Of a stretch of 64,000 bases of DNA, positions 48,387 to 59,021 are shown in pieces. This DNA is from Candidatus Gastranaerophilales bacterium (GTDB lineage: Bacteria; Cyanobacteriota; Vampirovibrionia; Gastranaerophilales; Gastranaerophilaceae), in the NCBI GenBank assembly GCA_944325605.1, contig CALVAX010000004.1, positions 62,001-126,000 on the forward strand, read 5' to 3'. The notes beneath the pieces are model-generated. The model saw only the letters and a list, made by a program, of their open reading frames with translations. It ran no database searches and was not told the origin of the DNA. Both the position numbers and the translations under genes were made by a program. Every line of letters begins with the position of its first letter. Position 1 is the first letter of the stretch.

Positions 48387-50990
48387 TTAATTTTTTAATT
48401 CACTTTCTATTTTTGAAAGAATTTCATCCAGTTTTGATGCGTCTTTAATTCCGCCCTGTGCAAAATTCGGACGTCCGCCTCCGTTGGCACCTGTAAATCT
48501 TGCAATTTCTCCGACAATCTTGCCGGCATTGATGCCTTTTTTCACAAAAGCATCCGAAACTTTTGCCATTACTGTTTTCGAGTTTGCAAGAACAATAACA
48601 CTTTCGCCGAATTTGTTGGACAAAAATTCAATACCGATTTTAGCGCCCAGAGGCGTAATATCTTCAATTTTTGAAATAAACAGCTTGCCGCCTTCGATTT
48701 CCTGAGCTTTTGAGGCAAATGTTGCGAATTTAGCTCTTGCATTTTCTTCCTCGAGTTTTTCTATTTTTTTTGAAAGCTCTTTATTTTCGTCAGCAAGTTT
48801 TTCGACACGTTCCACAACTTCGTTATAGTGGGCTTTGAACATTAAAGAAAGCTTATCCATTTCTTTAACTTTAGCATTCATAAACTCAAATGCCGAACGT
48901 CCGACAACGACTTCAATACGTCTTGTACCTGCGGCAATCGCGCCTTCTGTCACGATTTTGACCAGTCTTAAGTTACCTATATTTCTTGCGTGAGTGCCGG
49001 CACAAAATTCTTTTGAAATGCAGGTTTTGCCGTCAGTGATTGACACAACTCTTACAACATCGTCGTATTTTTCGCCGAAAAGTGCTGTTGCACCGGTAAG
49101 TTTTGCCTTTTCTATGTCCATAACTTCCGTCACGACATCATAGCCCTTAGAAATCCAGTTGTTCATAATGTCTTCAACCTTGAAAATTTCCTCAGGCGTC
49201 ATTGCACGGTTGAATGTAAAGTCAAATCTCATTCTGTTTTCTTCAACAAGCGAACCTGCCTGATGAACTTCGTCGCCGAGAACCTTTATCAATGCAGCCT
49301 GCAGAAGGTGGGCTGATGTGTGATGAAGCCTGATTTCTTCTCGTCTTGCAACGTCAATCATCGCCTTAACTTTTTCGCCGGTTGTGATTTCACCGTTGAT
49401 TAATTTAGCCCTGTGGACAAAAAGTTGATTGACTTTAAAAGTTGTCAGAACTTCTGCTTTCATATTTTCATTTTCAATAACGCCGCTGTCGCCGACCTGT
49501 CCGCCGCATTCTGCGTAGAAAGGTGTTTTGTCAAGAACAATATCAACATATCCGTCGCCTTCGACAGTTGCAAGAATTTTGGCATCAGCTTCGTTTTCGC
49601 TATATCCGACAAACTCTGTTGAACCGACTTCATCCTCAATTTTTGCATACTTCATATCGCCTGTAACAGAAAGTTTTGCGGTTGCTGCTTTGGCACGTTC
49701 TTTCTGCTCCTGCATTGCGGATTTGTAACCTTCTTCATCAACCTTCAGGCCGTTTTCCTGTGCGATTTCTTTTGTAAGTTCAAGCGGAAATCCGTAGGTA
49801 TCGTAAAGTTTGAAAGCATTTTCGCCGTCAATGTCTTTTTTGTTAACAATAAATTCATCAAGAAGTTTGTAGCCTCTGTCGAGAGTTTTGTTGAAGCGTT
49901 CTTCTTCTTTTTTGATTGTGTCAACAATTTTTGCTTTGTTTTTGACTAAATCCGGATAAGCCTCGCCGTAAGCGTCAACGACAACGTCAACAAGTTTGTA
50001 CAGGAACGGCAAATCCATACCGAGAATTTTACCATGGCGGAGTGCACGTCTTAAAATCATTCTCAAAACATAGCTTCTGCCTTCGTTTCCGGGGATTACA
50101 CCGTCAGAGATGAGGAAAGTTACGCATCTTGCATGGTCTGTAATTATACGGAGAGAAATGTCTGTTTTTTCCGATTTTTTATATGGAACACCGGACATTT
50201 CGCAAACTTTGTCTAAAATCGGCCTTAAAAGATCTGTTTCAAAGGTTGAAGCAACACCCTGACAAACCATTGTAATACGTTCAAGCCCCATGCCTGTATC
50301 AACGTTTTTGCTGTCTAAAGGCGACTGGTTGCCTTCTTCATCCTGATAAAGTTCCGTAAACACAAGGTTCCAGATTTCAACCCATCTGTCACATTCGCAG
50401 GTATCAATTCCGCAGCCTCTGGGATCATCGCATTTGTACTGTTCGCCTAAATCATAATGGATTTCTGAACACGGGCCACATGAGCCTGAAGCTCCCGGAG
50501 GACCCCAGAAGTTGTCTTTTTTACCTTTACGCTTAATTCTTTCTGCCGGAACACCGACACTTCTCCAGATTTCGTAAGCCTCGTCATCCGTTTCAAAAAT
50601 CGTAATCCACAGGCGGTCTTTGTCGAGTTTCAGAACCTCTGTAACAAACTCCCATGCCCACGGAATAATTTCTTTTTTATAATAATCGCCGAAAGAAAAG
50701 TTTCCGAGCATTTCAAAAAAAGTATGGTGTCTTGGAGTACGCCCGACGTTTTCAATATCACTATCTTTACCGCCGGCTCTTGCACATTTCTGGCAGGAAG
50801 CCGCACGCGGCGGATCATAAGGTGATTTTACAATCCCCAAAAATATTGGCAAAAACTGCAGCATTCCGGCTGTAGTCAAAAGCACTGTCGGGTTGTCCGG
50901 CACAAGGCTTGAACTCTCGACAATTGTGTGCTGGTGTTTGTCTTTAAAATAATTCAAATATAATTTACGAATTTCATTTCCGGTTAGCAT
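48387..50990 (-). CDS. alaS: Alanyl-tRNA synthetase
   Basis: AlaS charges tRNA-Ala. 867 residues with the class II catalytic core (TTAGMLQFLPIFLG; RTPRHHTFFEMLGNFSFG, motif 2), the tRNA-binding middle, the editing domain with its zinc site (HHTSAHLL and CAGTHARN), and the C-terminal Gly-rich domain ending in GGRPNFAQGG. AGAGGA precedes the ATG. No T-box or alanine leader is seen upstream; a MITE lies 77 bp beyond the start. Confidence 0.97.
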   Translation of the reverse strand: MLTGNEIRKLYLNYFKDKHQHTIVESSSLVPDNPTVLLTTAGMLQFLPIFLGIVKSPYDPPRAASCQKCARAGGKDSDIENVGRTPRHHTFFEMLGNFSFGDYYKKEIIPWAWEFVTEVLKLDKDRLWITIFETDDEAYEIWRSVGVPAERIKRKGKKDNFWGPPGASGSCGPCSEIHYDLGEQYKCDDPRGCGIDTCECDRWVEIWNLVFTELYQDEEGNQSPLDSKNVDTGMGLERITMVCQGVASTFETDLLRPILDKVCEMSGVPYKKSEKTDISLRIITDHARCVTFLISDGVIPGNEGRSYVLRMILRRALRHGKILGMDLPFLYKLVDVVVDAYGEAYPDLVKNKAKIVDTIKKEEERFNKTLDRGYKLLDEFIVNKKDIDGENAFKLYDTYGFPLELTKEIAQENGLKVDEEGYKSAMQEQKERAKAATAKLSVTGDMKYAKIEDEVGSTEFVGYSENEADAKILATVEGDGYVDIVLDKTPFYAECGGQVGDSGVIENENMKAEVLTTFKVNQLFVHRAKLINGEITTGEKVKAMIDVARREEIRLHHTSAHLLQAALIKVLGDEVHQAGSLVEENRMRFDFTFNRAMTPEEIFKVEDIMNNWISKGYDVVTEVMDIEKAKLTGATALFGEKYDDVVRVVSITDGKTCISKEFCAGTHARNIGNLRLVKIVTEGAIAAGTRRIEVVVGRSAFEFMNAKVKEMDKLSLMFKAHYNEVVERVEKLADENKELSKKIEKLEEENARAKFATFASKAQEIEGGKLFISKIEDITPLGAKIGIEFLSNKFGESVIVLANSKTVMAKVSDAFVKKGINAGKIVGEIARFTGANGGGRPNFAQGGIKDASKLDEILSKIESELKN

Positions 50991-51067: not shown

Positions 51068-51216
51068 AGGATTTATATAGTAAATTCCACTAAAAACTTT
51101 AAAACTGCGTCATACTGAGCGTTAGCGAAATATCTAAATGAAAAAGATTCTTCGGGCTTTAGCCCTCAGAATGACGGGCTTTTAATAGTATCTGGGAAAT
51201 TTGCTATATAAGTCCC
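51068..51216. mobile_element. MITE-like element, copy 3
   Basis: 149 bp with ends AGGATTTATATAGTAAATTC and (reverse complement) GGGACTTATATAGCAAATTT. The inside again has GTCATACTGAGCGTTAGCG and a matching CTCAGAATGACGGGC, forming a long hairpin. It lies between alaS and the EF-hand gene. Confidence 0.75.
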
Positions 51217-51243: not shown

Positions 51244-52407
51244 TTATTTTTTGAACTGGTCAAGAAGCATATTATGTTGTTCAAGATAATTGAGCCATTT
51301 CTGTTTTTCCGGCGGAACATCCGCTCTTGTTTTGCCGTCTAAAAGCGTTTCATCTCCTGCTGTGCCGTTTAGCTCAGGTAAAATTTTGCTGAAGAAAGTT
51401 TGCGTATCTACAGACCAGTCATTGCCGTCAAAATTCTTGCCTGTTGAGCGCTCAACAATATCAATATAATCAACAATCTGCTGCACTGTCATATTGGAAG
51501 TTTTTTCAAAGTTCTGACGTGCCGCACTGTTTTCAGGTTTTAATAAGGCACGAAAATCAGAAGCTTTCATATTTCTTAACTCCTTCCACTCAGCCTGATA
51601 CATTCTGTACATCGCAGGTGACATTGCATCCGTTTCTTCTTTAGGAAGTGCCTTAAACGCTGCCCAGGCAAGCCTGTTTTTCATTTCAGAAGCGCTATTT
51701 GTATCGCTGTCGGCTTCCAATGATCCGAACACAAGTGCGCAGGAATTTTGAGGCGCCATCGGTGGCTTGGAAAGATCCCCGCCGCAGCATGAATCAGTCT
51801 GAACAGGTGTTGCAAGACGGGTGTATGCATCAAGATTCAATCTGCCGTACAGGGCATTCTCTTTAAACAACCACCTGTTTGCCTGTATTTTCATTGCATC
51901 ATACAGAAGCTGCGTTTCTTCTTCCGTCAATTCTCTGCCGTAAAATTCTTTTGCACCTGCCCTTATCCCGACCATAGGATTGTCGTCTTCAATCCAGGTT
52001 TTGCACCAGGACTCAAAGTCATCCCCTTTGTAAGTTGAATTCTTTTTAATGTTATATTTTTTGCCGAATTCTCCGGTTGTTAAATCTCCATTCAAATGCC
52101 CGCCGTCAGTATTATGATTGGTCCATTTTGCATCTTCAACATTGTCAATTTCACCGTTTCCGTCCAAATCAATTCTCATCCATTTGTTGACATTGCGCTC
52201 TGCCTTAAATATGGCATCTTCCATCGCAACCAGATCCTTACCGGTATAACCTGCCGCTTTTAATTCTTCTCGTGAAATTGAGCCATTTTTATCTTTGTCG
52301 AGTTTTGTGAAAAGACTTTCTTTTATATGAGTGTCTTTTGAATCAGTTTTTTGTGTTTTCTTATCCGAATATTGTCCTGCGCTGTTTATCGGGTTAATCT
52401 CTGTCAT
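51244..52407 (-). CDS. EF-hand protein (387 aa)
   Basis: Two complete EF-hand loops: DKDKNGSISREE (residues 37-48) and DLDGNGEIDNVE (residues 80-91), with a third degenerate loop at about residues 100-113 (NTDGGHLNGDLTTGE). A long helical C-terminal part of about 250 residues has no known domain. There is no signal peptide; the N-terminal MTEINPINSAGQYSDKK is polar. The protein should bind calcium. It probably forms an operon with the gene at 52433, 25 bp upstream on the same strand. Confidence 0.75.
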   Translation of the reverse strand: MTEINPINSAGQYSDKKTQKTDSKDTHIKESLFTKLDKDKNGSISREELKAAGYTGKDLVAMEDAIFKAERNVNKWMRIDLDGNGEIDNVEDAKWTNHNTDGGHLNGDLTTGEFGKKYNIKKNSTYKGDDFESWCKTWIEDDNPMVGIRAGAKEFYGRELTEEETQLLYDAMKIQANRWLFKENALYGRLNLDAYTRLATPVQTDSCCGGDLSKPPMAPQNSCALVFGSLEADSDTNSASEMKNRLAWAAFKALPKEETDAMSPAMYRMYQAEWKELRNMKASDFRALLKPENSAARQNFEKTSNMTVQQIVDYIDIVERSTGKNFDGNDWSVDTQTFFSKILPELNGTAGDETLLDGKTRADVPPEKQKWLNYLEQHNMLLDQFKK

Positions 52408-52432: not shown

Positions 52433-52789
52433 TTATACATTTTGTGTAGTGTTTTCCTGCGCAATATCCCAAACACTTGTATCCATAGGAATGCTTGATG
52501 GTATGCCTCTGGCTTTTTTATCTGATTTGTGGGTATCGTCCTGAATTCCGGCTTCGGCACTTATCTTTTTGCCCTCTTCGCCATGAAGCATACCTGTAAA
52601 ACTTTTACCTTCCTGCTTTGCCGTAAATATTGACAACTCCCTTGCATAACCTCCGCTGTATCCCGCAATATTTGCAAGCGGAACAGTGTCGCTCCCGTCA
52701 AAATCAGTTCTGCCGTTCATCAAAGTAATCATATCTTTAGGATTAAATCCCGGAAACTGAGTGTAAATATCCCCGACAGTGATTGTCAT
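52433..52789 (-). CDS. Hypothetical protein (118 aa), partner of the EF-hand gene
   Basis: MTITVGDIYTQFPGFNPKDM starts a protein with one hydrophobic/polar middle (GYARELSIFTAKQEGKSF) and a Lys/Asp-rich C-terminal part. AAAGGAG precedes the ATG. It resembles no family that I know. It is the first gene of the pair and its promoter lies next to a 17-copy CCACA tract. Confidence 0.5.
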   Translation of the reverse strand: MTITVGDIYTQFPGFNPKDMITLMNGRTDFDGSDTVPLANIAGYSGGYARELSIFTAKQEGKSFTGMLHGEEGKKISAEAGIQDDTHKSDKKARGIPSSIPMDTSVWDIAQENTTQNV

Positions 52790-52825
52790 AATAGTGTATG
52801 CTCCTTTCTTTATATAAAATCTGTA

Positions 52826-52847
52826 TATTTATATAAAGTATTTTTGG
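52826..52847 (-). promoter_or_regulatory. AATACTTTATATA box, copy 3
   Basis: On the minus strand AAAAATACTTTATATAAATA, about 40-58 nt before the ATG of the gene at 52433, with TTGTCC just upstream as a possible -35. Confidence 0.45.
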
Positions 52848-52860
52848 ACAAATTTATTGC

Positions 52861-52945
52861 CCACACCACACCACACCACACCACACCACACCACACCACA
52901 CCACACCACACCACACCACACCACACCACACCACACCACACCACA
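52861..52945. repeat. CCACA tandem repeat, 17 copies
   Basis: Perfect 5-bp repeats, 85 bp long. It lies 72 bp upstream of the gene at 52433 and 14 bp beyond the AATACTTTATATA box, i.e. at or just upstream of the -35 region. Such tracts change length by slippage, so this may switch expression of the EF-hand operon. A small ORF across it is an artefact. Confidence 0.95.
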
Positions 52946-53084
52946 AAGCCATTGTAGCAAGAGTTTTAGATGTTTTAAATTCATATTTACATTTCGTAAC
53001 ATTCGCACATTTTAACAGCAGTTTTACAGAATAAAAACCTGAGCGCAAAGACTCAATACGTTAATTACGCACAAATTCTCCCAC

Positions 53085-53269
53085 GGGAGTTATGTAGCAA
53101 ATTCCACCAAAAATTTTCAAAATAGCGTCATACTGAGCACTCTGCCGAACAAAACGATTAAGTATCGTTTTGTGAGAGGCCGAAGTATCTCAATAAAAAA
53201 ATTCTTAGGACTTTAGTCCTCAGAATGACGGATGTTTATAGTATCTGTTGAATTTGCCACATAACTCTC
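53085..53269. mobile_element. MITE-like element, copy 4
   Basis: 185 bp with ends GGGAGTTATGTAGCAAATTC and (reverse complement) GAGAGTTATGTGGCAAATTC. It carries an extra 40-bp inner hairpin (AAAACGATTAAGTATCGTTTT) relative to the other copies. It ends about 107 bp before the tRNA-Arg gene. Confidence 0.75.
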
Positions 53270-53375
53270 GCTCCCTCCCTCTTGCATTCGAAAATTTTTA
53301 TGATAACATAATCAGCGGAGGGAATATACAGATACCCCACGAAACCAAACGTCTGTTTAGACCCTCTGGATCCAA

Positions 53376-53422
<47 letters not shown>

Positions 53423-53449
<27 letters not shown>

Positions 53450-54907
53450 AATTTTTTCAAAATCAGCCTTTTCCGCAATATAGCAGAAGGGCTTTTTATA
53501 TGTCCAGCTTAGGTTTCCGGATTTTAGTATGCAGTTCGAAAGTAGTGTTTTCAACAATTCGGCTTTGTTTTCATCCGAAACCTGCAAATACTTGTCATAT
53601 GTGTTTTCCAGAAGTTCTAAAGTTAAATTTATCTCATCCATGAACTTTTGATTTGACTTGTCTAATGCTTCTATCCGTGCTTTTAGCACAATCAACCGCT
53701 CCTGCCGAAGTTCATTTTCTTCCTGCCAACGCTCGGGAGAAATTATTCCGTCAAGTTTGTCCTGATATATCGCACGGATTTCATTCCTTATTTTTTCGGC
53801 TTCTGTATTCAGTCTTCTTAAACTTTCGGATTGAAAATCCTGTTCCTGCTTATTTAATTCTACCACTGCGTCTAAAATCCGCTGACGAATATTTTTGTCT
53901 AACTGAACGGCTTTCACTGCGTCGCCGAGCCGGTCTAACAACTCGTGTTCTTTATAGTATTTATGATTTTTGCATTTGTCTTTGCCGTATGCCCATGTAC
54001 AACGGTAGTAGATATATTTTTGTTTTTTTATTTCACCGACAATTGAACATCCGCAGTCACCGCAGGTTAGAAAATTACCAAGTAAAAATTTATGCTTATT
54101 GTAAAGCGGTTTGTTATCCTTTTTAAACGCGCTTTGAACACGCATAAACAGTTGATTTGAAATTAGCGGAGTATGCGTTCCTTGCATTAGCTGCCCTTTG
54201 AAGCGAAACATCCCTATGTAAAAAGGATTTTTCAACATATCTTCAAGAGCACCGGCGGTAATCTTAGGAGAATACGGACGGTAAGAATATCCTTCTTTTA
54301 CAAGTTGCGCTGCTGTATCTTTTACGGAAATATTGCCGCTTGAATATATTTCAAACGCTCTTTTGATAAAAGGTGCCGTAGTCTGGTTTACTTCAATAAT
54401 ACTTTTTCCCCGCTCATTTCTTACATTTTTGTAGCCGTACGGCGCACGGTTCGGAAAGATACCTTCTTCAGCTTTTTCTTTCAAACCTTTTCTTGTTTCT
54501 TCACGAAGGTTATCTATGAAATTTTTTGCCATTAAAACTTTTAATCCATGAACAAACTTTTGATGAGAGGAGGCTTCGTCATTAATAATCTCATGTTCTT
54601 TTACAAAATGAAGTTCAAATTTCCCTTCATCAATAAGTCCGTAGTCTGATGGATTTCTATACAAACGGTCTGTTTTTTCAACAAGAATTGTGTTTACATC
54701 TTTGGATTGTTTGAGAAATTTAACCATTGCATTGAACTGTTTTCGTCCGGATTTTTTAGCGGTTTCGGATTCGGTGAACTCTTTCACTATCTGAATATTA
54801 TTATTGCGTGCATAATCCTGTAACAATTTAACCTGCGCCGGTATTGAAAACCCCTGACGCTCCTGTTCATCCGATGAAACCCGCGCATACAACACAGCTT
54901 TTTTCAA
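53423..54907 (-). CDS. Large serine recombinase (integrase)
   Basis: 494 residues. The resolvase domain starts MKKAVLYARVSSDEQERQ, with catalytic Ser11. The recombinase domain follows, then a zinc ribbon (FLTCGDCGCSIVG and RCTWAYGKDKCK), a coiled-coil (about residues 360-450) and a C-terminal tail. This is the architecture of large serine integrases. TTG 54907 is chosen as start, 8 nt after AAGGAG. An in-frame TTG at 54913 is too close. The last eight codons and the stop lie inside tRNA-Arg on the other strand, so the attachment site overlaps the gene end. Confidence 0.9.
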
Positions 54908-55010
54908 AATCAATACTCCTTTTTGTTTATAATATAATTCTACATGAAATCTGCGTCCTGATAAACAGATTATTACAGAAATTTCATGAATATATGTAAA
55001 GGAATTAAAC

Positions 55011-56003
55011 ATGCCGGACATTTTTAAAAGAATTGATGACAGAACATTTTTTATTTTGTATGCACTGACAAAACAACCAGACCTTCGTGTACCGACACTT
55101 TCAGCGCTATATGGGGAAACACCATTTAACGAAATTTGTATAGAATTTGACAATCTAAAAAGGTTTGAAATTGAAACTATGCTGACCTATGCTCCAAGCG
55201 AAGCTGTTGATATGGAAACACTGGAGAAAATTAAAGAATATGAAACTGAGATAAAAGAATTTTTAACCGGAGAAGGGTTTGCGCAACAAACCTCTATTGT
55301 TGCAAGAAAATTAGTACCTTATGCTGCTGAAGCTCAATTTATCTGCAAGTCACCCGAAAGACTGCAAGAAAAAATTGATGAATATTTTACAAATTCAGAA
55401 TCAAGCCGGAAATTATACTTTTACAACTATGAAAAACATCTAAAAATCTTTGAAGAGGTAAATGAATGGGCGATTACCGGCATGACAGCACCGTATAAAA
55501 TAGGTTTTGACAGATTCCTTCAATTTATTCATGAAAAAAATATAAGTAAATATGCATTTTTTCATTTTTTATATCAGCTTGAAAAGTCAGGAAGTATTAA
55601 AATATCAGAATTATCAGTTCAAGGAGGCGTCCCGCTTATAATATTTGAAACTTTGAAGCAAAAAATCCATAAGCCTGTGAAAAAAGAAGTACCGCAGGGA
55701 AGAGAATTAGCACATTTTCAAACACTTCATTTATATGAAAACGGAATAATTGATACGGCACAAGACGGGAAATTCTTCCGGTGCGATACTATAGAAGCCC
55801 GCTTATTTGAGATGTTTTTTAGACAGCCATATCAGAATCATTCATACCGCTCAATTGAATCTAGGATAGGTGTGTACAAAGAGATGCCTAAAAGAATTTC
55901 AAAAGCCCGAATAAAACTTCAAAGAATTTTGAAAAATAATAACAAAAAATATTTTATCAATAATCAAAAAAATAAAACCTACAAATTTACACAGCCTGAT
56001 TAG
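55011..56003 (+). CDS. Hypothetical element protein, divergent to the recombinase
   Basis: 330 residues, soluble, mostly helical, with a basic C-terminal 60 residues (SKARIKLQRILKNNNKKYF) that may bind DNA. A middle part (AFFHFLYQLEKSGSIKISEL) could be a winged helix. Its position next to the integrase, divergent with a 103-bp gap, suggests a role in excision, control or replication, but no family is recognised. ATG 55011 follows AAAGGA. Confidence 0.5.
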   Translation: MPDIFKRIDDRTFFILYALTKQPDLRVPTLSALYGETPFNEICIEFDNLKRFEIETMLTYAPSEAVDMETLEKIKEYETEIKEFLTGEGFAQQTSIVARKLVPYAAEAQFICKSPERLQEKIDEYFTNSESSRKLYFYNYEKHLKIFEEVNEWAITGMTAPYKIGFDRFLQFIHEKNISKYAFFHFLYQLEKSGSIKISELSVQGGVPLIIFETLKQKIHKPVKKEVPQGRELAHFQTLHLYENGIIDTAQDGKFFRCDTIEARLFEMFFRQPYQNHSYRSIESRIGVYKEMPKRISKARIKLQRILKNNNKKYFINNQKNKTYKFTQPD

Positions 56004-56032
56004 AAAGTAATAAAAAATCTTCACACTAAAAT

Positions 56033-56066
56033 AAAATCTTCACTTTTTGTGAAGATTTTTTATTTT
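56033..56066 (+). terminator. Terminator of the gene at 55011
   Basis: AAAATCTTCAC, five-base loop, GTGAAGATTTTTTATTTT. Confidence 0.85.
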
Positions 56067-56162
56067 GCAACCAGCCCCGATTTGCTTAATTTGACGGATA
56101 AAATATTCACGAATTTTCTGCAAATCATTTTTATATTTTCAAGTGAACCATACACTTAATGT

Positions 56163-56330
56163 ATGAATTATAAAATCCAACAAGAAAAAACCTTCTGGCA
56201 AAAATACACAGATGAAAAACTCTCGGATGAGAATATCTTCGAGATTAATCAAAATCTACAAAACTTTGCCGGAGCACTTTTGAAAATACGAACAGAATTA
56301 AAAAATAAAAAGGAGAAAAGAAATGACTAA
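56163..56330 (+). CDS. Hypothetical small element protein (55 aa)
   Basis: A continuous frame from ATG 56163: MNYKIQQEKTFWQKYTDEKL then a helical, Lys/Glu-rich end. It overlaps the next ATG by 8 bp, and AAGGAG inside its 3' end serves that next gene. Short phage-like ORF; function unknown. Its own start lacks a clear Shine-Dalgarno. Confidence 0.45.
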   Translation: MNYKIQQEKTFWQKYTDEKLSDENIFEINQNLQNFAGALLKIRTELKNKKEKRND

Positions 56331-56525
56331 AAAAGAATTCTGTATTCAAATTTTATCATTTTGGATAAAAGAGACAATAAATTCTACATAGTACCACCGT
56401 TAAAGGTGACTAAGACTTTTTTAAAGTGGTTGGAAGATAATCCACAAATATTTATACAGATGATTGAAGATAATATCTTAAAAATGAAAGACGAGGAAAA
56501 TATGGAAAGAAAAATACTAACTTAA
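56323..56525 (+). pseudogene. Frameshifted small ORF A
   Basis: ATG 56323 is preceded by AAGGAG. The frame runs MTKKEFCIQ and then breaks at a T4 run (56351-56354). A -1 shift there restores a plausible protein containing IILDKRDNKFYIVPPLKVTK up to the stop at 56523. The break could be a base deletion, an assembly error in a homopolymer, or a recoding site. Confidence 0.5.
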
Positions 56526-56674
56526 TTATCGTTGATGATAAGTATGGTGTTTTTTACTTATGGGAAAATGCAAACTTAACCCCTGAGGAAATTGAAAGAT
56601 TTAAAAATTCAACAGATGAAGATTATGACAGACTTTTAGAATATTTGAGAGGGAGAGTAGATGAAAACAAATAA
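56502..56674 (+). pseudogene. Frameshifted small ORF B
   Basis: ATG 56502 opens MERK and then stops unless a -1 shift happens in the A5 run (56510-56514). After that shift the frame reads NTNLIIVDDKYGVFYLWENA up to a stop at 56672, inside the 5' end of the primase gene. It has the same kind of break as ORF A, one gene earlier. Confidence 0.45.
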
Positions 56675-59021
56675 TAATATATTAAAATTATTCAGAGCCG
56701 GATTCAAACTTGTTCAGGCTCCATACAAAAGCAAAAATCCGATTATGCGGGATTGGCGTAATAAATGGGTAAGAAGTGAAGAAGAACTTTTAACTATACT
56801 AAAAACAAATCCTGCGTTAAATTTTGTAATAATTCCACATGATGACTGGATAGTTTATGATATTGACCCTCGCAATGGTGGGCTGGAAAGTTATCAAAAA
56901 CTAAGAGAATATTTTAGCAGAACTTTCAAAGTTGCAACCGGCGGTGGAGGTTTTCATTATTACTACAGACTGCCGCAGGGCTTTGATAAGTCTTTACGGA
57001 AGGATTTAAAGGGTTATTACGGAATTGATATCAAAACATCTACAGGATGTCTTGTTGCACCGGAAAGCACTCACCCGAACGGTCAAAGGTACAGAATTGC
57101 AGATGATAGTATCAATACACTTACAGAAGTTCCGCCGGAGTTGCTTAAACTTGCAATAAAGCAAGAAGAATATCCGGAAAAAGTTCGAAACTATAATAAT
57201 AAGCAAAATCATGACATCCAAAAGGGAGGAAGAAATAATGCCGTGACATCTTACGTAGGTTCATTGTTCAGCAAGGGGCTTGAATATAAGGATGTACAAC
57301 TCTTAGCGGATGCATACAATAGTTCCTATTGTAAACCGCCGTTATCCCGTAGAGAAGTCGCAGGCATTGTTAAGAGTATAAGCCGTTACAATAATGCGCA
57401 GAGGCGCAAAAACAGGGATACAAAAATTTCTGTTGAAACAGTTATGGATGACAAAGATAAGCCCATAGGACAAATTGTAGAAGAAATCCTTACAGAAGGA
57501 AAAATGAAAACAGATATCCGTTTTCGGCTTGTGAGTGAAGTTATCATAAAGGATTTATCCGAATGCGGAAAATTCTATAAATCCAACGGTAATTATTATA
57601 TTTTTGATAACAAAACAAAAATGCTTATATCAATCAACAAAGGCAATATTAATTTAAAAACATTACTTGCAAAATACAGAATTAACGCTGCAAGAGATAT
57701 ATTTAAAATAATCTATGAAGCATTAATTGTTCATTGTCAATCCGAAGGTGAAGAAACAGAGGTTTATAAATACTCTCATTTTGATATTGACAGCGGTTGT
57801 TTATATCTGAAAAATCACAACATGATTTATAAAATCACAGAAGATGATGTTATAAAATGTGACAATGGTACTGATAGAGTGCTCTTCACAGACACTGTCG
57901 AGGTTGAACCTTATGAATATATTAATAATGTAAAAGAAGATTATTTGAAGAAGTGTTTATTAAATCTGCCAAATTATTCTCAAATGCCGTATTTGAGTAA
58001 TAATGACGCTAAAAACATAGTTGCAATCTATCTTCACGCTCTATTCATGCCGGATTTATTACAGACCAAACCGCTTATTTCTACAGTAGGTTCAAAAGGC
58101 AGCGGAAAAACTACATTGTTAAGAATGATGTTGAAGTGTATTTACGGAAAATATGCAGATGTGACTGCAATGACAAACAAAATGGAGGATTTAGACACAA
58201 TTATTGCAAAGCGTCATTTTATTGTAATAGATAACCTTGATACTTTTAAAGACAGTATTAATGACAAAATTGCCTCTTATGCAACCGGTGTTGTCAATGA
58301 AAAGCGGCGGTTATATTCTGACGGAGATGTCTATAAAGAACGTGTTGAGGCTTTTATCGGAATATCAACAAGAAATCCTGTATTTCGCCGCGACGATGTT
58401 GCACAGCGGGTTATTATTATATACTTAGAACCTTTAACAAAATTTTCAACGGAACGTCAGATTATTGAACCCGTGATGAAATATCGAAATGAAATCCTTT
58501 CTCAAATAATTCAAAAACTGCAAGGTATAATAAAACTTATTAATAGGAAAAAATTCGCAAAAACCAGTTCGAGCTTCCGTATGGCAGATTTTGCATACTT
58601 TACAGCTTTGTATCTCAATAATCATCTGAAAGCCGAAGATTTACTGCTAAGAATATCTAAAACTCAACGTGCGCTTGTCCTTGATGGAGATATTTTAATT
58701 ACATATCTTGTAAAATATGTTGCTGAAAACAGACGCACCGGTTTTCCCTCTGAATGGCTGACAGCAGCGCAGTTCTATGAACAGCTTGACGGAAGAGCTG
58801 CTGTTGAAAAAAAAGATACTCTTTTTAAGAATGAATTTAGAGAGAGATATGAAAACTCAATCAGTCTCGGGAAAAGGCTGACAAATATTAAAAGTGACAT
58901 ATCCGAATATATAAAGATTGAAATAAGAAAGAACAGCGGGAATGTGACTACATATCGTGTGTCGGCTGGCGAATGTTTTAATGAACTTTTGGAGGGGTTG
59001 CTAAAAAAACAGAAGAGTTAA
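56661..59021 (+). CDS. Primase-polymerase / SF3 helicase replication protein
   Basis: 786 residues with a full replication-initiator layout. The N-terminal prim-pol domain has the acidic pair in VYDIDPRNGG (residues 66-73), GGGGFHYYY (His99), and DIKTSTGCLVAPESTHPNG. A PriCT-type helical region follows (GGRNNAVTSYVGSLFS). The C-terminal SF3/D5-type helicase has Walker A GSKGSGKT (about residue 476) and Walker B HFIVIDNLD. Such proteins replicate plasmids and phage-like elements. GGGAGAG lies before the ATG. Confidence 0.85.
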   Translation: MKTNNNILKLFRAGFKLVQAPYKSKNPIMRDWRNKWVRSEEELLTILKTNPALNFVIIPHDDWIVYDIDPRNGGLESYQKLREYFSRTFKVATGGGGFHYYYRLPQGFDKSLRKDLKGYYGIDIKTSTGCLVAPESTHPNGQRYRIADDSINTLTEVPPELLKLAIKQEEYPEKVRNYNNKQNHDIQKGGRNNAVTSYVGSLFSKGLEYKDVQLLADAYNSSYCKPPLSRREVAGIVKSISRYNNAQRRKNRDTKISVETVMDDKDKPIGQIVEEILTEGKMKTDIRFRLVSEVIIKDLSECGKFYKSNGNYYIFDNKTKMLISINKGNINLKTLLAKYRINAARDIFKIIYEALIVHCQSEGEETEVYKYSHFDIDSGCLYLKNHNMIYKITEDDVIKCDNGTDRVLFTDTVEVEPYEYINNVKEDYLKKCLLNLPNYSQMPYLSNNDAKNIVAIYLHALFMPDLLQTKPLISTVGSKGSGKTTLLRMMLKCIYGKYADVTAMTNKMEDLDTIIAKRHFIVIDNLDTFKDSINDKIASYATGVVNEKRRLYSDGDVYKERVEAFIGISTRNPVFRRDDVAQRVIIIYLEPLTKFSTERQIIEPVMKYRNEILSQIIQKLQGIIKLINRKKFAKTSSSFRMADFAYFTALYLNNHLKAEDLLLRISKTQRALVLDGDILITYLVKYVAENRRTGFPSEWLTAAQFYEQLDGRAAVEKKDTLFKNEFRERYENSISLGKRLTNIKSDISEYIKIEIRKNSGNVTTYRVSAGECFNELLEGLLKKQKS

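Follow-up and report, generated by a model that had tools for sequence, protein, structure and literature searches.

The perfect (CCACA)17 tract at positions 52861-52945 of the window, i.e., the whole stretch of 64,000 nucleotides analyzed here, is, judging from a comparison of genomes, one expanded example of a predicted promoter class found before dozens of unrelated genes. Promoters of this class consist of an HLR1 box, the predicted binding site of the regulator RpaB, followed by TTTAAA, a spacer containing CTGAAA, TATAAT and, 4-5 nt further, an array of repeats with a period of 5. At the level of sequence, this description is firm: the feature is real, conserved and larger than the initial annotation had noted.

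On the reverse strand, which is the coding strand here, the tract reads (TGTGG)17. TRF found it with period 5, 17.0 copies and 100% matches, exactly where and as long as initially reported, and as the sole period-5 array of the 64-kb window. No other run of at least four CCACA copies is present in the 2.15-Mb genome. As a perfect short tandem repeat near a promoter, the tract resembles phase-variable simple-sequence-repeat loci. Its association with a promoter was also recognized correctly, since a conserved promoter adjoins the tract on the side away from the genes, and the orthologous loci are alike in this respect. However, the tract was assumed to lie in the -35 or upstream region, where its slippage would alter the spacing of the promoter, and neither part of this proposal can be maintained. 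All elements of the promoter are on the reverse strand and precede the tract. The HLR1 box (AATGTTACGAAATGTAAA, 52986-53003), with one mismatch to WWTGTAAMNNWWTGTAAM, is located immediately upstream of the -35 hexamer TTTAAA (52974-52979), and a 17-nt spacer with a conserved CTNAAA motif separates the latter from the -10 hexamer TACAAT (52951-52956), which is extended by a preceding TG and reads TATAAT or TATACT in most relatives. Both hexamers were identified by a promoter scan, which by itself yielded sites no more numerous than expected by chance, together with the alignment of the family. In the AT-rich stretch between the tract and the first gene, the scan gave no sigma-70-type match. The tract begins 5 nt past the -10 hexamer, at the predicted +1, and is therefore predicted to belong to the transcribed leader rather than to -35 or upstream DNA; with a start predicted 6-8 nt after the -10 hexamer, the array would be the first sequence transcribed. 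The remainder of the predicted leader (52790-52860, reverse strand) comprises GCAAT, the AT-rich TTTATATAAATATA and the ribosome-binding site GAAAGGAG, and is also found in the orthologs. As the array is positioned between the -10 hexamer and the start codon, slippage can change neither the -35/-10 spacing nor the reading frame.

Two genes follow on the reverse strand. Gene 1 (52433-52789) encodes a protein of 118 amino acids, for which no Pfam or NCBIfam family and no match in a PDB fold search were found; homologs are present in 46 of 383 genomes of the family, belonging to 13 of 41 genera. Gene 2 (51244-52407), 25 nt behind gene 1, encodes an EF-hand protein of 387 amino acids (Pfam EF-hand_1, 30.4 bits at a cut-off of 25.4). 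Its predicted structure is poor (mean pLDDT 57.6), and EF-hand stretches are the only matches of its profile in the PDB. An identity as a XopAW type III effector was rejected, as the score was 29.9 bits at a cut-off of 120 and the match (residues 5-94) covers only the EF-hand part. The EF-hand ORF that was initially noted behind gene 1 is indeed there, but the array is not peculiar to an EF-hand operon, because it is a regular constituent of a promoter class that precedes many unrelated genes. Among 21 loci examined, an EF-hand partner was found behind gene 1 in this genus and at locus L082 only; it accompanies gene 1 only in a minority of lineages. In genus g2 (L156), a homolog of gene 2 is located directly behind a class promoter of its own.

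Within the genus of the window, gene 1 has four orthologs. In three of them, the TGTGG repeat is likewise present at the corresponding place, with 13 copies in genome G009, 33 in G011 and 14 or more in G005, the latter number being a lower bound since one contig ends and another begins inside the tract. The fourth, in G002, has about five TATGG units at the orthologous place. Most of the closer homologs of gene 1 also carry a pentamer array at this position, with ATAGG, TTAGG, ATAGC, TATGT or TATGG as the unit, and beyond the array, away from the gene, they share TGTAACGAAATGTAAA, followed by TTTAAA, a CTGAAA-containing spacer of 17 nt and TATAAT. Among the homologs that lack an array are those at loci L030, L044, L045, L054, L065 and L070-L076. 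Upstream of those at L030, L044 and L045, inverted repeats such as GTAACACAAT..ATTGTGTTAC are found instead, which suggests that a different regulator took over.

The initial annotation regarded a tract of the same length everywhere as evidence against slippage. Between species and between loci, this was not what was found. Besides the difference between 13, 17, 33 and at least 14 copies among the species of the genus, the array has 4 full copies at locus L067 and 9 at L068, where the flanks show no difference over 300 nt upstream and 99.8% identity over 600 nt downstream. Similarly, L035 and L036 have 6 and 4 copies with flanks that are 96.0% and 99.7% identical, and two paralogous copies in the genome of the window have 3 and 5 array units. 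Since near-identical flanks are combined with unlike copy numbers, the arrays appear to change in length faster than their surroundings, and slippage is supported by these comparisons. All genomes compared are MAGs or species representatives, and copy numbers may therefore be affected by assembly. Contigs end in or beside an array promoter in G005 (C5/C25), G120 (C59), G125 (C16) and G056 (C35), so that long arrays may be under-reported by assemblies.

The promoter class was delineated in a census of repeats that combined pattern and model searches. A search with the core pattern, into which neither the upstream box nor the array entered, yielded 17 sites in the genome of the window as compared to 3 with a reversed-pattern control. 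Ten of these 17 sites were read, and nine have the upstream box as well as a pentamer array, before unrelated genes. A promoter model, R1, was built from 31 promoters; it includes the HLR1 box and ends before the array. In the genome of the window, the best 13 matches of R1 (E≤5e-9), with the promoter of the tract in 13th place, are each followed by a period-5 array that begins 4-5 nt past the -10 hexamer, and every weaker match in this genome lacks one. The class is present in 59 of 117 genomes of the family with a completeness of at least 95%, representing 20 of 33 genera, with 1-27 promoters per positive genome (E≤1e-6). In a class-wide sample, 68 of 194 genomes were positive, and in a phylum-wide sample 79 of 291. 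Every positive genome belongs to the family of the window; thus, in the samples searched, the class is found only in the Gastranaerophilaceae.

Since R1 ends before the array, the arrays could be evaluated in the promoters that it found. Among promoters of other genomes that were found only by R1, 74 of 82 (90%) carry an array (run ≥7), as compared to 5 of 1471 control TATAAT or TATACT sites without HLR1 in the sequences examined. A perfect run of period 5 that is 8 or longer is present in 85 of the 100 promoters with enough sequence and in 0.35% of shuffles, whilst such a run at any of the periods 3, 4 and 6-9, or in a control stretch downstream, was found in one promoter of 100 each. The array starts 4-5 nt after the -10 hexamer in 79 of 100 promoters. 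The commonest perfect run, present in 35 of 100 and across several units, has 17 matches, corresponding to 22 nt or 4.4 copies. The units vary (ATAGG, ATATG, GTATG, TTAGG, TGTGG), while position, period, modal length and the near-absence of C hold. Long arrays are exceptional; besides those with 17 copies in the window and 33 in G011, they are found at L112 (TATGG, ~15-16), L040 (TTAGG, ~16), L123 (ATAGG, ~10 in its longest perfect run) and L230 (ATATG, at least 13). The arrays of gene 1 homologs end 59-89 nt from the ATG, and their position is fixed to the -10 hexamer and not to the start codon. About 10% of the class promoters have no array or a degenerate one; hence, the array is not indispensable.

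A property shared by all units was sought. On the RNA strand, the units counted contain no C (0/460), and a TA step is present in 90 of 92 units, where 46% would be expected. However, neither property is universal, since TGTGG in the window lacks TA and ATAGC contains a C. At least three -10-like TANNNT sequences are present in 86 of 102 promoters, but TANNNT repeats as the sole principle were rejected, as they fit 90 of 92 units and not the TGTGG of the window. CsrA (GGA) sites and Shine-Dalgarno mimicry were rejected as well, because they are not common to all units. Nor could the arrays universally be read through by a leader peptide or an upstream ORF, given the TAG or TGA stop codons in ATAGG, TTAGG, ATAGC and TATGA arrays. 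A search in Rfam revealed no known RNA family, only tRNA and sub-threshold matches.

The box that precedes the core corresponds, in reverse complement, to the HLR1 consensus, (G/T)TTACA(T/A)(T/A)NN(G/T)TTACA(T/A)(T/A) (PMC11633204). Over 100 class promoters, the match to HLR1 is exact in 77 and has at most one mismatch in 96, with an offset of -47 from the -10 hexamer in 87, although the scores of promoters found with R1 are not independent because HLR1 is included in this model. Independent support comes from the nine core-pattern sites, all of which have the box even though the pattern did not contain it. An RpaB ortholog is encoded in the genome of the window (L109:1486-2235, reverse strand; NCBIfam NF045944, 361.2 bits at a cut-off of 330). 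In Cyanobacteria, RpaB binds HLR1, and activation is associated with a box that lies upstream of the core promoter (PMC6331805). The promoters of the class have their box in this position, like positively controlled cyanobacterial genes (PMC11633204, PMC6331805), and they are predicted to be RpaB targets, to which RpaB would bind. Thus, the box of a light-response regulator is present although the hosts are non-photosynthetic. That RpaA, RpaB and NblS are found in Melainabacteria has been known since 2013, and another function was suggested for them, because photosynthesis is absent in these bacteria (Di Rienzi et al., PMC3787301). At two loci (L128:1501-1600 and L129:1501-1600), HLR1-like boxes with no recognizable core or array were found before genes with similar polar N-termini. 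Possibly, these are further RpaB targets with another type of promoter.

The ORFs behind the class promoters are mostly unrelated to each other, and for most of the ones scanned, no Pfam family exceeded the cut-off; exceptions include EF-hand proteins and RHS repeats. Their polar N-termini give the impression that the products are exported, which these termini suggest rather than establish. In the genome of the window, a divergent flagellar-type export gate is encoded beside FliH-, FliF- and FliE-like genes (L234:9935-16052); the score of this FlhA/SctV-like protein reaches neither the FlhA nor the SctV cut-off. Similar-scoring FHIPEP proteins are listed for most of the Gastranaerophilales genomes tested, including ones with a second, higher-scoring FlhA-like protein. 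The presence of a type III export gate was considered as a discriminator of promoter-bearing genomes and rejected: FHIPEP proteins occur in 117 of 117 genomes and, hence, do not separate genomes with and without class promoters.

In the preferred reading, to which about even confidence is given, the tract is the expanded form of a standard element of Gastranaerophilales promoters, which RpaB activates and in which the array acts in initial transcription. RpaB would activate the promoter from the HLR1 box directly upstream of the -35 hexamer, and RNA polymerase would transcribe the array as the first ~20 nt. Normally, the array has ~4.4 copies (22 nt) at the predicted +1. Being repetitive, nearly devoid of C and provided with a TA step every 5 bp, which gives overlapping -10-like TANNNT sequences, it may set promoter escape, pausing or the choice of the start site and, thereby, output, which slippage would tune via the copy number. 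In the lineage of the window, the unit has become TGTGG and the array has grown to 13-33 copies. The constant distance from the -10 hexamer, a period of 5 bp, 22 nt as the commonest length and the turnover of the unit together argue for a role in initial transcription rather than for a sequence-specific binder. A stretch of 22 nt is about what an initiating polymerase covers downstream of +1. Somewhat less confidently, the arrays may represent a new kind of promoter element, i.e., a start-site repeat that is kept throughout a regulon by selection on period, position and length, with the sequence of its unit free to vary, and that acts on initial transcription and is tunable by slippage in a repurposed RpaB regulon of many, possibly exported proteins.

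Action at the RNA level remains the strongest rival of this reading, albeit a rather unlikely one. The repeat at the 5' end of the mRNA would be bound by a protein or small RNA (Csr, Csp, S1-like) or would protect the 5' end, thus setting translation or decay, with the copy number as the tuning device. The predicted location at the extreme 5' end of the leader fits such a role, as does the essentially C-less nature of arrays in leaders that are not unusually folded (mean z -0.22). There are also precedents (PMC4679880), including one with a tested leader repeat: uspA2 of Moraxella catarrhalis has (AGAT)n in its 5' untranslated region, with 6-23 copies depending on the strain, which affects expression (Attia and Hansen 2006, cited in PMC4679880). 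Like in uspA2, a short tandem repeat of varying copy number is located between promoter and start codon, and a placement in the transcribed leader is predicted from the position of the -10 hexamer for ~100 promoters here. In contrast to this tetranucleotide repeat of one gene, the arrays are a component of a promoter class, with unit turnover and a modal length common to many genes. The TAACTGA direct repeats found in marine Beggiatoaceae and in some Cyanobacteria form the second precedent; many of these arrays are present per genome upstream of functionally unrelated genes, with 2-6 copies in the main genome and up to 43 elsewhere (MacGregor 2015, PMC4679880). The many arrays per genome before unrelated genes are a shared feature. 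However, TAACTGA is a constant heptamer just before start codons, where canonical ribosome-binding sites are rare (PMC4679880), whereas the unit here is variable, with period 5 and a place fixed to the -10 hexamer of an HLR1 promoter. The arrays were therefore not classified as TAACTGA-type repeats, their units being variable pentamers that, in gene 1 homologs, end well before the ATG. A sequence-specific RNA binder would not readily tolerate the turnover of the unit (AUAGG, AUAUG, GUAUG, UUAGG, UGUGG, AUAGC). Moreover, the GGA core of CsrA sites is missing from many units, and the place of the array is set by the -10 hexamer and not by the start codon.

Less probable still is a contingency locus, in which slippage of the tract would make genes 1 and 2 phase-variable, as initially proposed, but by switching them on and off via the leader. 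The variation in copy number between species, the 4 and 9 copies between near-identical flanks, and the assembly break within the G005 tract would all be expected of such a locus. However, the geometry excludes a change in -35/-10 spacing, and a non-coding array offers no reading-frame switch. Furthermore, the modal length is narrow throughout the class and most arrays look length-constrained; the strong mode at ~22 nt argues for a constrained element over a free-running switch. An operator at the DNA level, where the array would be a tandem site in double-stranded DNA for a protein that blocks or helps RNA polymerase, is improbable: the fixed position, the period of 5 bp (half a helical turn) and the near-constant length of 22 bp would agree with it, but the sequence of the unit turns over and no candidate protein was found. 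A G-quadruplex in the non-template strand or the leader RNA (GGN3GGN3) is very improbable. TGTGG, TATGG and ATAGG arrays fit a two-tier motif, and 55 of 102 promoters contain one; this proportion and the several units without GG led to its rejection as a common principle, since ATATG, TTATG and ATAGC arrays cannot form the structure, which is present in the predicted minimum-energy fold of only 6 of 100 leaders. Just as improbably, the arrays could be functionless microsatellites produced by slippage at start sites; slippage plainly occurs, but arrays are nearly absent past ordinary TATAAT sites, and the period, offset and modal length hold across genera.

The class resembles the HLR1 promoters of the cyanobacterial NblS-RpaB system in having the same box and an RpaB ortholog, and it differs by its non-photosynthetic hosts and its diverse, uncharacterized targets; a fixed core with a CTGAAA spacer and a pentamer array is not mentioned in the available parts of the two cyanobacterial sources (PMC11633204, PMC6331805). 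The class represents a concrete predicted RpaB regulon of 1-27 promoters per genome, which makes the role of RpaB in Melainabacteria a testable question. For studies of promoter escape, the arrays offer naturally varied initially transcribed sequences; they may also be a tuning device for putatively exported proteins of gut bacteria. Regulons of secreted effectors, such as those of PmrA in Legionella and of the hrp box, are also defined by one conserved promoter with a regulator box before many unrelated proteins. The single promoter type before many unrelated proteins is shared with the class described here, but export is only putative in the latter, and we know of no repeat array in the former. 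To our knowledge, no tandem repeat has been described that regularly belongs to a promoter class and keeps its period and place while its unit changes, and a search of the literature, partly of titles and the beginnings of abstracts, did not reveal such repeats in Melainabacteria or Gastranaerophilales.

The gene pair is flanked by two copies (51078-51200 and 53092-53262) of a dispersed repeat whose ends are inverted (GTCATACTGAG ... CTCAGAATGAC), and pieces similar to it were found upstream of the G002 ortholog; a sub-threshold match to 'MIR6140' in Rfam (53083-53271) corresponds to this repeat. Right beside the array promoter, the ORF of a serine recombinase terminates within tRNA-Arg(tct) (53376-53449); a gene of the Prim-Pol/primase type (56661-59021) is located beyond, and the region 53376-59021 probably contains an element integrated at the tRNA. 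The alaS gene (48387-50990) is located downstream of the EF-hand gene on the same strand in the window, whereas in G009, G011 and G005 it is divergent and has its start immediately upstream of the array promoter, which indicates a relocation or an inversion of the gene pair.
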